Shown here: in pieces, positions 1-5,229 of the stretch
Numbering within the stretch: the stretch's first letter is position 1
Layout of the letters: each line of letters begins with the position of its first letter
Source of the DNA: Candidatus Eiseniibacteriota bacterium
Lineage (GTDB): Bacteria; Arandabacterota; Arandabacteria; JAGLYR01
Length of the DNA stretch: 5,229 bases
Direction: 5' to 3'
NCBI GenBank assembly: GCA_023132135.1
Contig: JAGLYR010000114.1
Location: forward strand, 1 to 5,229
The notes under the pieces: model-generated
Database searches by the model: none
The model's input: only the letters and a program-made list of their open reading frames with translations
What the model was told of the DNA's origin: nothing
Translations under genes and position numbers: made by a program

Positions 1-14
1 TTCTCTATTGCTCT

Positions 15-60
15 GCCTGGACTGTGTGCGAATCCATCCGGATTCGTGCATAGTCCAGGC
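15..60 (+). promoter_or_regulatory. Long hairpin in the leader of the histidine kinase gene
   Basis: The arms 15-35 and 40-60 form a 21-bp stem closed by the 4-base loop ATCC. Eighteen pairs are Watson-Crick. The other three (24/51, 27/48, 28/47) are G-U wobbles when read as plus-strand RNA but C-A mismatches in minus-strand RNA, so the uninterrupted stem exists only in a rightward transcript. It ends 3 bases before the GGAGGG ribosome binding site of the kinase gene and buries an alternative GTG (46) in its right arm. No U-tract follows on either strand, so it is not a classical intrinsic terminator. A leader RNA structure affecting translation or mRNA stability is inferred; the end of an upstream transcript is the alternative. 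Confidence 0.6.
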
Positions 61-63
61 TCC

Positions 64-69
64 GGAGGG
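64..69 (+). promoter_or_regulatory. Ribosome binding site deciding the TTG start of the histidine kinase
   Basis: GGAGGG is a near-perfect anti-16S match placed 6 bases before TTG 76, which is in frame with the kinase. The farther in-frame GTG at 46 has no purine-rich sequence before it and lies inside a stable hairpin. This favours TTG 76 as the start. Confidence 0.7.
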
Positions 70-75
70 TCTCGT

Positions 76-3024
76 TTGGCTCCTGAACTAGGCGCAGTGG
101 CGGCGCAGGGGAGCGGGTACGCCCTTGCCTGCGCCGCGTCGGTTGCCATGATGCTCATGGTGGGTTTCCTGGTTCTGGCCCGGAGCCCGTCATCCGCGGT
201 CAACCGATCCTTCATGGGGATCGTCATTGCCTGCTGTTGGTGGATGGGCGGGCGGGCCGGCTTTTTCGGGAGCCTGACAGCAGCGGAAGCTGCGGACTGG
301 CACAAGCTTTCCTTTGCCGGTCTGGTGTTCCTTGCCCCTGCCATCCTACTGCATGCGGCTTCGGCGACCGCAAGAATACGACGGTGGCTGAAGGCCGTCG
401 TCTCCATGTTTGTCCTCTCGGCGGTATTCTGTCTGTTCAGCTTCGTTTGGCCCGATGCCGTTGCCACCATTGTCCCGAATCCCGACACAGGGTGGTTCCC
501 CCTGTACTCCGCGGGCGGGTATTTCCTGGTCGCTTTCCTCGGTGTTGTCGTCCTGGTTTGCTGTATCGCCCTGTCCCGATCGCCTGTGCCCAGCAGCGCC
601 ACGCAGAAAGGGGAGAGGAATCGGTCCCGGATCATTCTCGTGGGAATGGCAGCCGGATCCACAGCGTTGTTCGATCTGCTGCCGGCCTCAGGGTTCAACT
701 ACCCTCCCATCGCGCACTTCTCCCTCCTGGTAGGGGTCGCTCTCTGTGGCTACGCCGTGGGCCGCCACCGCGTCGTGATCCTCACCCCCTCGACAACGGG
801 CGAGGCCATTGCCGGCACGATGCAGGAAGCCCTGTTTTTTCTGGATCTGGATGGGACAATCCTGTTCACGAACCGCGCTCTCAACAGCCTCCTGGGTTAC
901 AGGGATGGCGATCTGAACGGCCGGTCTTTCGATGTCCTCTTCGTCCGGGAGACCCCGTTGCAGCTGGATCTGGGACCACGAGGCCGGGGACTGGCCGGGG
1001 TTCAGAGCGCGATGGTGCAAACCCGGACAGGCGCCAGTGTCCCTGTGACGGTTACGGTCAACCCTCACTTTGATGAGGAAGGGGAGATCGCAGGCTTCGT
1101 GGGGCTGGGGTTGGAACAGGTGGAGCAGGTGCGGTTGGGGAAGCGAATCCAGGATCTGGAGGGGGAGATCGATGCAATCCTCGGCACGTCGATGTTCGGC
1201 GTGTACACGATCTCGGAAATGCGATTCACGTTCGTGAATTCCAGACTGAGCGAGATCATAGGTTACGAGGCGGAGGAGCTCCAGGGGAAGCACTTGGAGG
1301 AGATCATTCATCCGGATGACCACGAACTGGTTCTTGGCAGGGTTGCGATGAGAGAGAGGGGTGAGAACCCCGAGAATCACTACGTCCTCCGGGCAGTCAA
1401 GAAAAACGGCGACACCGTTCACATCGAGATCTTCTCGATGGTGTTGCCCCGCGACGGGCGATTCATTGTCCTCGGCCTTGCCCTTGATGTGACGGACCAG
1501 CTGAGGTCGAAGCAGGGGATTCAGGAGGTCAACGATTTCAATGAGTGGATACTCCGCAACACCCCGGCTGGAATCGTGACCGTCGATCCGCAGGGACGGA
1601 TTGACTACGCCAACCAGAGGATTTTGGACCTCCTGGGAGAGGAAGCCGCCGCCCTGCAGGGCCGTCACATCCGCGATACCTCCCTTGGCGTCGATCCCGG
1701 GCTCACGGCTTTCTTCGATGAGAACTCCGGCGGGACGGATGTCGGGCGCCCTGCCCCGGAGAATCTGGCTGTTCCGCTGCAAGAGGGCCGTGAGGTGGCC
1801 GTTTCCGTGACACGGTTGCCGTCCGCCGGGAGATCGGATGAGGGCTACCTTATTGTGGTGGACGACGCGGATCGCCGGGAGCATGGGAGCGGGACAACAT
1901 CCATCGAACCGGTGCGCGATTGGGTCTCGCTGTTGTTGGGAGGGCTGGCGCGGGATGTTGAAGGGCAGCTCGGAAGGATTCTCGGCTACGCGTCTCTGGC
2001 AAGGGCTCTCATGCCGGGTGAAGAGAAGGTCAGCGGTTACATCGAGGCAATCACGGAGTCCGCACAGAAGACTCTGGAGATGATCAGCCAGTCGGAGGAA
2101 TCCGCCGGCGGGCCGACTCGCCACGATGCGGATCTGTCTATCAACGATGTCGTAGAGGAGGCACTGGTCCGACTCGAAGGACACATGAGCTCTTCTGTCG
2201 ACCTCAGTCGTTCGATGAAGGAAGATCTGCCTCGCATCGAGGGCAACCGGGCACAGCTTCGGGAGATGTTCTATCAGCTCGGCCTGAATGCTCTGGATGC
2301 CTTGCCGGATGGCGGCCGATTGCAGATCGAGACAGAGGAAATCCACCTCGACGGCTACGAGCAGGGCCGGCAGCAGGGGCCAAGACCAGGGGATTACGTC
2401 TGTGCTCTGTTCAGGGATTCGGGTCCGGGGATTCCCGAGAATGTCCGGGAGAGGATCTTCGATCCGTTCTTCACCACGGAGCATCAGAAGTGCAAGGCGG
2501 GTCTGGGACTGTGGCTGGCCCGGTCTGTTGCCGGCAACCACCAGGGCGCTGTCCTTGTGGAGAGCCGGACGGGTGAAGGAGCGACTTTCCGGGTCTGCCT
2601 GCCCGTCGCGTTGGCCTCGAACCGGGAGGATGGCGATCCACCGGTGGAGGGCGGGACGAGCGAGGGAAGGGTTCTCATTGTGGACGATGAACCCGCGGTG
2701 CGGGAAGTGAGCTCCGAGCTGCTCACGGAAATGGGGTACGAGGTTCTCACGGCTCCCGATGGCGAAGTTGCACTCAGGATCTTTGATGAGGACCAGGCGG
2801 TGGATGTTGTGGTCCTCGACATGGTGATGCCCAGGCTCGACGGCGAAGGGACTTTCAGGGCGCTCCAGGAAAGGGATCCATCCGTCAAGATAGTGATTTC
2901 CTCCGGCTATGCCGAGGATGAGAAGGTCCGGGACCTTCTGAAAAAGGGCGCCCTCGCTTTTGTCCAGAAACCCTACCGGGCACAGACCCTCGCCCGCGCC
3001 GTCCAGGATGCCATGGCATCCTAG
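76..3024 (+). CDS. Hybrid sensor histidine kinase, 7TM-PAS-PAS-PAS-HATPase-receiver, H-box His replaced by Arg
   Basis: About 982 residues from TTG 76 (992 if GTG 46 is used); numbering here is from TTG. Residues 14-230 carry about seven hydrophobic segments, resembling the N-terminal 7TM sensor of some histidine kinases. Three PAS domains follow (about 245-355, 362-478, 488-598); the middle one is the most typical, with IIHPDD and a PAC-like end at DVTDQ. The DHp-like region (614-678) has GGLARDVEGQLGRILGYASL where relatives have GG-A-H-DFNN---ILGYAEL, so the phosphoacceptor His is Arg626. The HATPase_c domain (724-845) keeps the N box (LNALDALPDGG, Asn738), the G1 box DSGPGI (781-786), DPFFTT and GLGL, but Lys807 replaces the first Gly of the G2 box. 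The receiver (864-980) is complete: Asp870/Asp871, phospho-Asp915, Ser943 and Lys965. The protein should sit in the inner membrane, sense a signal through 7TM and PAS, and output through its receiver. No cognate regulator lies nearby. Family assignment is firm; normal autokinase activity is doubtful. Confidence 0.93.
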   Translation: MAPELGAVAAQGSGYALACAASVAMMLMVGFLVLARSPSSAVNRSFMGIVIACCWWMGGRAGFFGSLTAAEAADWHKLSFAGLVFLAPAILLHAASATARIRRWLKAVVSMFVLSAVFCLFSFVWPDAVATIVPNPDTGWFPLYSAGGYFLVAFLGVVVLVCCIALSRSPVPSSATQKGERNRSRIILVGMAAGSTALFDLLPASGFNYPPIAHFSLLVGVALCGYAVGRHRVVILTPSTTGEAIAGTMQEALFFLDLDGTILFTNRALNSLLGYRDGDLNGRSFDVLFVRETPLQLDLGPRGRGLAGVQSAMVQTRTGASVPVTVTVNPHFDEEGEIAGFVGLGLEQVEQVRLGKRIQDLEGEIDAILGTSMFGVYTISEMRFTFVNSRLSEIIGYEAEELQGKHLEEIIHPDDHELVLGRVAMRERGENPENHYVLRAVKKNGDTVHIEIFSMVLPRDGRFIVLGLALDVTDQLRSKQGIQEVNDFNEWILRNTPAGIVTVDPQGRIDYANQRILDLLGEEAAALQGRHIRDTSLGVDPGLTAFFDENSGGTDVGRPAPENLAVPLQEGREVAVSVTRLPSAGRSDEGYLIVVDDADRREHGSGTTSIEPVRDWVSLLLGGLARDVEGQLGRILGYASLARALMPGEEKVSGYIEAITESAQKTLEMISQSEESAGGPTRHDADLSINDVVEEALVRLEGHMSSSVDLSRSMKEDLPRIEGNRAQLREMFYQLGLNALDALPDGGRLQIETEEIHLDGYEQGRQQGPRPGDYVCALFRDSGPGIPENVRERIFDPFFTTEHQKCKAGLGLWLARSVAGNHQGAVLVESRTGEGATFRVCLPVALASNREDGDPPVEGGTSEGRVLIVDDEPAVREVSSELLTEMGYEVLTAPDGEVALRIFDEDQAVDVVVLDMVMPRLDGEGTFRALQERDPSVKIVISSGYAEDEKVRDLLKKGALAFVQKPYRAQTLARAVQDAMAS
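3005..3022. terminator. Perfect 18-bp palindrome between convergent genes, possible weak bidirectional terminator
   Basis: AGGATGCCATGGCATCCT reads identically on both strands, giving a 7-bp stem with a CATG loop. It overlaps the last codons and first stop base of the kinase gene and lies 17 bases past the stop of the minus-strand gene, where a shared transcription end would be expected. Downstream on the plus strand there is only a short GTTTCTC, and on the minus strand no T-run, so an intrinsic terminator is weakly supported. It may instead be a chance result of the codons for DAMAS. Confidence 0.3.
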
Positions 3025-3039
3025 CCTGCGTTTCTCATC

Positions 3040-5013
3040 CTACACAAGTACCGAGATCATGATCCCCGCCAAGGCGAAGAAGAGAACCGCCGCGCACAGC
3101 TTCACCAGCGCAGCGCGGGACTGGAAGAGGCCGGCCAGCTGGCCGGAGGTTGTCCCATAGTAGCTCACCAGGAACACCGCGATGAGGGGAACGACAAACA
3201 TCACGTTGTAGAGAACGAGATAGGCGATGGCGTGCATGCGGAGCTCCGGGATGCCGGTGACGAAGCAGATGGTGGGCAGGTACACCTGACCGGTGCAGGC
3301 CAACTCGAGAAACGAGACAATGGCCCCGGTGACGAACGCTGCCACCACATAGTTCCGGGTTCGGGTCCTTTCCCGGATCGTCTTGTGGATTCTCCTTTTC
3401 AGGAAATCGGGAAGCTGGAGCGAGATCTCCTTCGTTCTCCCCTGCCGCAGCTTCCGGAAATCGAGAACGCTGAGAACTCCGAGAGCGATGGCCAGGATCG
3501 CCGTGACTCCGTACACAATCCGCGCTAGCAGGTGGAACACAGACAGGGATTGCAGAAATGCCAGTGCACCCAGGCCGACGAGGAAATAGGTCAGAAACAC
3601 CGCCAGCGTGAAGGATAGCCCAATCCAGAGAATCTCGCGCCCGGCGCGCCCGACGAAAGCCAGGTAAGAAACAAAGAAGATGATAGTTGCAAAGGCGCAG
3701 GGATTGATCCCATCCACCAGGCCGCCAAGGACGACGGTGAGTGGCCCAAGGGACTGGAACCGCGCGATGATGCTCTGTCGGGCCTGCTCTCTGGACCCTG
3801 CGGCTTCCTCCCAGGGAGGTTCACTCCCCCGGGGAGAAAGCCGTGCGAGCATGTCTTGGGCCGACGCGTCATCGAGATCATGCTCGATGAGGTATTGCCC
3901 TCCGCTGAAGAGGCTGGGTGCAACCAGGTGCTTTTTCTCCGGCGCGCCATAGATGCAGCAAAGCGCCTCGTTCAGCTCCTGGGCCTCGGGTTCGGTAACG
4001 TCGAAGGTCCGAATGACGATGGGAGCGAAACGCCTGGCGAGCCGTTTGAGCATGAAAGCGGCCCGGTCGCATTCCTTGCACCCGGGTTTGCGGAAATAGG
4101 CGAGGTAGATCGTGTCCCGGCGAGCGGGAACAGGAGCACCTTCGGTGACGGAGGGTCTGTCTGGGATCTCGCATCCGTGGCTGGAAAAGAGTGCCTCCAG
4201 CTTCCCCGGTGTATGTTCGATGATGGCGTCGTCGCCTCCCAGGATCTCAGGCCCCATCACCAGAACGGGCAGGTCGTTTCCCGTCCTTCCCAGCTTCTCC
4301 TCCACATCCACCAGCCAGGCGTAGTTGTCCTCCCGGTCCACGTAGGCAGTCTCAAAGATGAACTGGCCCTGGAAGAAATTCTGCAGCCGGGGAAGGTAGA
4401 AGCTCTTGACGGCCAGGCAATGGGGGCAGTCCAGTGAGGCGAAGAAGACGGCTCTCACGATGTCGCGGAGGCTCGATCCCACCTTGGCCAGCGTTGCTTC
4501 CAGGGAGATCTCCTCCTGAAGAAAGAGATGAACGGGAACGATCAGGAGCGGCTCGGTGGGATCGTCACTCTCCACCAGGACAAAGTAGTTGAATCCCCAG
4601 TGCTGGCCCGGTGCGAGGCGGGCGCGGAACGCCGTGGAGTCCCCGGGCGCCAGGGAAGCGGTCTTCGGCGGATCGACCTCGCACCCGATTCCCCGGATTC
4701 CCTTCACGGACAGAGCGCCGAGCCCCTCATTCCGGAGAACGAATTCCTGCTCCGTCGTCTGTCCCGCGGTTGCTTCCAGGTAGCAAGGATTGGGGTGGAC
4801 ACTCACCTCCCCGCTCTGCGCTTCCAGGATGTACCCCTTGACGGTGAACCGGAGGCGGGGCTGATCCGGATCGTTGCTGTCGATGAAGACCGTCTTGGCT
4901 GTTTCGCCCTTGCGCTTGTCGGGGACGTACCGGAGGGGGACCTCGATGTGATTTCCGGGCTGGACGGTTGCAGGTTCAAAGACGATCAGGAGACACGCGC
5001 AGCTGGAGCGCAA
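3040..5013 (-). CDS. DUF1573-thioredoxin-thioredoxin-CcdA/DsbD-like transmembrane thiol-disulfide conduit, 5' end disrupted
   Basis: The open frame gives 657 residues from TTG 5013 and opens just after a stop at 5041-5043. Residues 4-62 match the C-terminal half of a DUF1573 (Ig-like) domain: SSCAC in the place of the family's CGC motif, then QPG and SNDPDQP. Residues 68-166 are a second, fuller copy (VLRNEG, GIGCEV, LAPG, ESDDP). Residues 172-285 are thioredoxin-like, with Cys196-Pro-His-Cys199 and cis-Pro249. Residues 300-392 are a second such domain with Cys312-Lys-Glu-Cys315 and cis-Pro366. Residues 424-656 hold six membrane helices, with Cys439 (INPCA) in helix 1, Cys573 (ACTGQ) in helix 4 and a basic, presumably cytoplasmic loop at 519-555, as in CcdA. 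By family knowledge, such domains carry reducing power from cytoplasmic thioredoxin across the membrane; here it would pass to the attached outer thioredoxin domains. Targets are unknown. TTG 5013 has no ribosome binding site and the frame lacks a signal peptide, so the true N-terminus is probably the out-of-frame start upstream. Confidence 0.88.
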   Translation of the reverse strand: MRSSCACLLIVFEPATVQPGNHIEVPLRYVPDKRKGETAKTVFIDSNDPDQPRLRFTVKGYILEAQSGEVSVHPNPCYLEATAGQTTEQEFVLRNEGLGALSVKGIRGIGCEVDPPKTASLAPGDSTAFRARLAPGQHWGFNYFVLVESDDPTEPLLIVPVHLFLQEEISLEATLAKVGSSLRDIVRAVFFASLDCPHCLAVKSFYLPRLQNFFQGQFIFETAYVDREDNYAWLVDVEEKLGRTGNDLPVLVMGPEILGGDDAIIEHTPGKLEALFSSHGCEIPDRPSVTEGAPVPARRDTIYLAYFRKPGCKECDRAAFMLKRLARRFAPIVIRTFDVTEPEAQELNEALCCIYGAPEKKHLVAPSLFSGGQYLIEHDLDDASAQDMLARLSPRGSEPPWEEAAGSREQARQSIIARFQSLGPLTVVLGGLVDGINPCAFATIIFFVSYLAFVGRAGREILWIGLSFTLAVFLTYFLVGLGALAFLQSLSVFHLLARIVYGVTAILAIALGVLSVLDFRKLRQGRTKEISLQLPDFLKRRIHKTIRERTRTRNYVVAAFVTGAIVSFLELACTGQVYLPTICFVTGIPELRMHAIAYLVLYNVMFVVPLIAVFLVSYYGTTSGQLAGLFQSRAALVKLCAAVLFFALAGIMISVLV

Positions 5014-5053
5014 GGATAAGTGATAACAGGCGAGCCGGTCTCAACAGATTCAC
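4976..5053 (-). other. Signal-peptide-like start in a shifted frame upstream of the DUF1573/CcdA protein
   Basis: Reading from GTG 5053 (or TTG 5044, same frame) gives a 25-residue peptide that begins MNLLRPARLLSLILALQL and stops at TGA 4978-4976. It has the form of an export signal: short, Arg-containing N-region, then a run of Leu, Ile and Ala. It overlaps the main minus-strand frame, which is open from 5040 downward and one base away, so a +1 shift or the loss of a single base between about 5040 and 4979 would join the two. It supplies both the ribosome binding site and the export signal that the main frame lacks. It is probably the original start of that gene, separated by a deletion/frameshift or sequence error. 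An independent leader peptide is less likely. Confidence 0.55.
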
Positions 5054-5057
5054 CTCC
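5053..5057 (-). promoter_or_regulatory. Ribosome binding site for the signal-peptide frame
   Basis: On the minus strand GGAGG lies 8 bases before TTG 5044, which begins MRPARLLSLILALQL. A second purine-rich block (GGAGAAG, 5065-5059) lies 8 bases before GTG 5053 in the same frame. By contrast, the bases before TTG 5013 of the main frame are TTATCACTTATCC, with no Shine-Dalgarno match. Translation therefore most likely enters in the shifted frame. Confidence 0.55.
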
Positions 5058-5229
5058 GCTTCTCCGGTCTGACACTGGAACGATGTGGTCTGCATATGGT
5101 TGGTACGCGAAACCCAAGAGTCCGAGACGGCAACGCTCATGTTCTCGGTCAATCACCCCCGTCATAGCCTGGGCTATTCAGGAATCCCGTGGCGAGAGGG
5201 ACGCAGGGTGTGACTGGCAAGGCGCGGGG
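5058..5229. other. Upstream region of the minus-strand gene, no gene recognised
   Basis: These 172 bases hold no recognisable coding sequence. On the minus strand the signal-peptide frame stays open back to ATG 5140, but that would put about 29 unlikely residues before the signal core. A small inverted repeat, ATAGCC/GGCTAT with a 2-base spacer, lies at 5164-5177. The promoter of the minus-strand gene should be here, but no convincing -35/-10 pair with proper spacing was found. Confidence 0.4.

Follow-up and report, generated by a model that had tools for sequence, protein, structure and literature searches.

The locus and its domain layout

The window analysed here is a whole contig of 5,229 bases, taken from a draft genome of 3.4 Mb (345 contigs, 96% complete). 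It carries two convergent genes. The plus-strand gene encodes a hybrid histidine-kinase-like protein, whose features are as follows (residues in open-frame numbering).

46..3024, plus strand: hybrid histidine-kinase-like gene, in a frame that runs uninterrupted from 1 to 3024 over 1007 codons without a stop (GC3 0.73 vs GC2 0.45)
136..789, plus strand, residues 46-263: N-terminal membrane sensor, HisKA_7TM (Pfam PF16927, E 2e-10)
802..1680, plus strand, residues about 268-372, 397-504 and 516-560: three PAS domains (Pfam and NCBIfam PAS matches in three stretches)
1906..2103, plus strand: degenerate DHp (dimerisation and phosphotransfer) helical hairpin (alignment with DHp of homologues; HisKA score under the cut-off; AlphaFold2 at modest confidence)
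1951..1953, plus strand: CGG codon of Arg651, in the column of the phospho-acceptor His (homologue alignment and residue table)
1954..1965, plus strand: DVEG in place of DFNN (residue table)
2245..2610, plus strand, residues 749-870: CA domain (HATPase_c) with N, G1, F and G2 boxes present (PF02518, E 5e-16)
2671..3003, plus strand, residues 891-1001: C-terminal receiver (REC) with DD/D/S/K all present (PF00072, E 5e-25)

The protein is a hybrid kinase of CckA-like architecture, 7TM-PAS-PAS-PAS-DHp-CA-REC, and the Pfam scan of it gave no HisKA domain over threshold. The earliest start listed is the GTG at 46, and base 1 of the contig is already in frame. The real start may be this GTG or one beyond the contig edge. 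The match to the 7TM profile begins at position 4, so that little of the N-terminus can be missing. An antisense open frame of 617 codons (688-2541, minus strand) overlaps the kinase gene; long antisense open frames are common in GC-rich coding DNA.

The gene on the opposite strand (3040..5013, minus strand) is unrelated to the kinase finding. It is a DUF1573-glutaredoxin-DsbD-like gene with membrane parts, and its resemblance to the OS_HP2 (seleno)protein family is weak. It begins within its first domain, the profile being entered at position 38-39 of 98, and two upstream fragments in other frames (5013-5229, minus strand) gave no match to the missing part. Truncation, a frameshift and a start elsewhere are the candidate readings.

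The acceptor column and the search for relatives

The codon at 1951-1953 is CGG, two base changes away from CAT or CAC, and encodes Arg651 in the context LLLGGLA-R-DVEGQLGRILGYASL. As the earlier note had claimed, this Arg stands at the phosphoacceptor column, and the DFNN that usually follows is gone (RDVEG in the window protein vs HDFNN). The residue span 614-678 that had been given for the region was wrong, however, as positions 1915-2109 correspond to residues 639-703. We gathered 130 homologues with the C-terminal half of the protein as query. His occupies the acceptor column in 120 of the 130 and DFNN comes next in 85, HDFNN being by far the commonest form. The DxxN motif has been implicated in the phosphatase action of CckA and the HDFNN class (PMC4853435); in the window protein its +1 Asp is kept and its +4 Asn is replaced by Gly.

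No other nearby His stands in an H-box setting, in agreement with the earlier reading. Residues 601-780 hold only His628 in the PAS-DHp linker, His708 after DHp helix 2 and His728 at the start of CA, none of them in a predicted DHp helix. The N box Asn, the G1 Asp with both Gly and the complete receiver (DD/D/S/K) were confirmed, and the F box and the G2 Gly are likewise present. The proposed comparison with the HisKA profile (PF00512) gave 14.4 bits for the DHp of the window protein, where the cut-off is 26.9. Two of the nearest His-bearing relatives, compared over DHp segments of the same length, scored 39.6-41.1 bits. AlphaFold2, run with six aligned sequences, predicted a DHp helical hairpin at low to moderate confidence and a CA domain and a receiver at good confidence. 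The DHp helices lie at residues 13-47 and 52-78 of the fragment, whose residue 1 is residue 624 of the protein. The PDB matches to the predicted fold are canonical DHp-CA kinases, including CckA, and the pseudokinase DivL.

We found no orthologue of the window protein in 8 genomes of the phylum, nor in 386 genomes searched with a five-row profile. A degenerate-peptide scan of about 85,000 genomes also revealed no orthologue, and nothing above 33% across the transmitter-receiver stretch. The window protein itself scored 562 bits with the profile; among genomes that had not contributed to the profile the top score was 366 bits, for a His-bearing protein. The closest homologues share 35-36% identity with the window protein, belong to one family of another phylum and have HDFNN. 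The earlier note had held that close homologues with His at this column would speak for a strain-specific loss: homologues with His were found, but at 35-36% none is close. The Arg state was seen in one assembly only. The branch leading to the window protein is long (1.65-1.76, vs medians of 0.57-0.86), which could alternatively reflect an early stage in the loss of function.

Divergence by domain and other His-less hybrids

Mean identity per domain was compared with that of 93 canonical hybrids, H-box columns excluded; this set was collected by similarity to the window protein, and its ranks are therefore indicative. The DHp of the window protein has a mean identity of 0.257 (canonical mean 0.399), with 1% of canonical proteins lower, and its CA has 0.313 (canonical mean 0.401), with none of the 93 lower. 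The REC value, 0.327, lies at the 56th percentile (canonical mean 0.317). Both the DHp/REC and the CA/REC ratios are under those of all 93 canonical hybrids. Indicatively, then, what appears new here is that DHp and CA, measured against an average receiver, have diverged further than in any of the 93 canonical relatives.

Other His-less hybrids were found among the homologues. Clade A (support 100/100) comprises members of one family, f6, with a conserved His to Leu change in five genomes (L099, L234, L235, L236 and L253): L-EYNN in genomes G010, G074 and G075, L-EFNN in G072 and L-ECNN in G073. Clade B has L-DFGS, L-DFDS and L-DFNN beside His-bearing sisters; reversion to His within it is possible, Leu and His codons differing by one base. 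Q-DFND in G005 and E-DFHA in G007, of the window's own class, lie inside a His-bearing clade. Supported branches place the His-less proteins in no fewer than three groups, namely clade A, clade B and the G005/G007 proteins, which indicates that loss of the His is recurrent. Five further candidates (L059, L068, L069, L075 and L088) are likely misaligned members of other kinase families and were left uncounted. In a quick tree one clade A member is nearest to the window protein, and an AU test of the two grouped together (p 0.525) is compatible with either placement.

In clade A the receiver lies at the 45th-75th percentile, with DHp/REC and CA/REC at or below the 3rd percentile. One member, L253, has lost the G1 Asp and one Gly and keeps a complete receiver. 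The same pattern in the window protein and clade A suggests that decay of the transmitter beside a retained receiver recurs. In clade B and in the G005/G007 proteins this signature is hardly visible. Clade A retains ExxN, and its members may be dedicated phosphatases.

The five genomes of family f6, which belongs to another phylum, all carry a second, complementary type of hybrid (5/5; G010, G072, G073, G074 and G075). These companions (L244-L248) keep HDFDN and an ordinary DHp-CA, and their receivers have lost their key residues. The His to Leu hybrids have a complete receiver and are of SBP_bac_3-PAS-PAS type where the N-terminus is covered; the receiver-dead companions are HAMP-PAS hybrids with a weakly matched dCache. 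Judged from their residues, this co-occurrence suggests a division of labour. The pair is a more striking and promising lead than the window protein itself, and it is a testable one.

The window's own genome contains a second His-less kinase, L251 (771 codons, Q-SFRD, no receiver; C126:10646-12958, minus strand). Some 70 bases downstream of it, on the same strand, follows a His-bearing hybrid kinase of 568 codons (C126:8873-10576, minus strand), and the two possibly form a pseudokinase/hybrid kinase operon.

A kept receiver on a degenerate transmitter

In the window protein the acceptor His and the +4 Asn are lost, the ATP-site and receiver residues are retained, the frame is intact, and DHp and CA are selectively diverged. 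We consider it probable that the protein is a membrane-bound 7TM-PAS3 hybrid sensor with a pseudokinase transmitter, whose receiver is phosphorylated by another kinase or an HPt. The earlier proposal of a candidate signalling pseudokinase, which may bind ATP and may have its receiver phosphorylated in trans, is consistent with all of these measurements; we infer from them inactivity of the transmitter and phosphorylation in trans, with a putative partner and output.

As the acceptor His is absent, the canonical His-to-Asp route is closed to this protein. Its DHp-CA would fold and dimerise and would probably bind ATP. It would accept no phosphoryl group on a DHp His and would not dephosphorylate the receiver by a DxxN mechanism; a dedicated phosphatase was considered and is unlikely, the +4 Asn of that motif being lost. 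The receiver appears to be under normal constraint, and its phosphoryl group would most likely come from another histidine kinase, either via an HPt domain or through mixed dimerisation with a canonical hybrid. Phosphoryl donors are available, as the genome has 35 HATPase_c matches, 43 receiver matches and three HPt domains, two of which belong to other hybrid kinases. No neighbouring gene on the 5.2-kb contig gives a pointer to a partner. The transmitter drifts and the receiver remains complete. This is best explained by a pseudokinase scaffold that carries a receiver under the control of the sensor, and the protein may serve as phospho-acceptor, brake or scaffold within the relay of another kinase.

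The main rival, which we hold to be rather unlikely, is that the protein is the catalytic half of a mixed dimer, an active subunit without its own acceptor whose intact CA phosphorylates the His of a partner. Many kinases autophosphorylate in trans, every ATP-site box is present in the window protein, and His-less and His-intact receiver-dead hybrids stand together in all five f6 genomes. Regulatory heterodimers of hybrid kinases are also known, as in RetS-GacS (PMC12189002). However, few if any of the sampled proteins have a CA that is as diverged, when set against the receiver, as that of the window protein, its diverged DHp speaks against pairing with an unrelated DHp, and no partner is known. 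It is unlikely that the gene was recently inactivated and is functionless on its way to loss, a reading that the single genome, the long branch, the loss of two catalytic DHp features and the lack of an orthologue would fit. Against this, its 1007 codons have neither stop nor frameshift, its codon-position composition is of coding type even within DHp, and its receiver is average in conservation and keeps all five key residues; neutral decay would have affected the receiver as well.

We assign a similarly low probability to a broader reading, a recurrent and selectable class of hybrids with pseudokinase transmitter and kept receiver that work in trans with a receiver-dead kinase. The window protein would either belong to this class distantly or have arisen independently. 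Autophosphorylation at some other residue of the window protein is very unlikely. The intact ATP-site residues are what speaks for it, but the predicted DHp helices are free of His, the three candidates (His628, His708 and His728) being confined to linkers and CA, and the HisKA score is far under the cut-off. An error of sequencing or assembly at the H-box, conceivable in a draft of 345 contigs, is extremely improbable, as the earlier note had also judged: two bases of the codon and three adjoining residues (F to V, N to E and N to G) are altered in an open, stop-free frame, and DHp and CA are diverged throughout.

The preferred reading, a receiver kept on a pseudokinase transmitter, bears on a rare group, the His-less kinases, few of which have a proposed mechanism. 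The signature of a diverged transmitter beside a normally constrained receiver tells a kept phospho-acceptor receiver from plain gene decay, and it is applicable to any hybrid kinase.

Among known systems, CckA-type (HDFNN) hybrids share the PAS-DHp-CA-REC order. The DHp-CA of Caulobacter CckA (5IDJ, 5IDM) is the best sequence match of the window protein among solved kinases (E 3e-18) and a top structural match. The CckA NCBIfam equivalog is the best-scoring model, at 199.6 bits, but its cut-off is 1000. The window protein differs from CckA in the lost His and +4 Asn of DxxN and in its 7TM sensor, and is no orthologue of it. LvrB, a Rec-controlled histidine kinase found among the structural matches (8VC9), has an attached receiver that controls its DHp-CA core; it autophosphorylates and hands the phosphate to LvrC (PMC13269768), whereas the window protein is without an acceptor His. 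DivL is a pseudo-histidine kinase in which the acceptor His is Tyr550, with neither kinase nor phosphatase activity, and which senses DivK~P (PMC4211667). It resembles the window protein in its PAS-DHp-CA with a replaced acceptor, and its DHp-CA (4Q20) is among the structural matches. However, DivL as that paper describes it ends in DHp-CA and has Tyr (or Ala) in the acceptor column, whereas the window protein has Arg and a complete C-terminal receiver of its own.

Caulobacter CCNA_03265 (CC3162) is a hybrid whose HK domain is without the conserved His and whose receiver Asp is kept; its authors proposed phosphorylation by an HPt, heterodimerisation or a nearby substitute His (PMC11481889). 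Its candidate, H151, lies a few residues downstream in the same helix; the DHp of the window protein holds no such His. In the LadS/RetS/PA1611 network, hybrids act on GacS via mixed dimers or phosphate siphoning (PMC12189002). Its partners are known, and it is likened to the window protein by the action of hybrid on hybrid, not by the acceptor residue. HisKA domains without His number 722 of 76,471 (about 0.9%), and the term pseudo-histidine kinase covers proteins of histidine-kinase fold that lack at least one of the functions usual for it (PMC12632262). The window protein has a predicted HK-like DHp-CA fold and is missing a residue essential for autophosphorylation. Pseudo-histidine kinases are already established, and the window protein, for which no orthologue was found, is a well-defined and unusually clear-cut further case.
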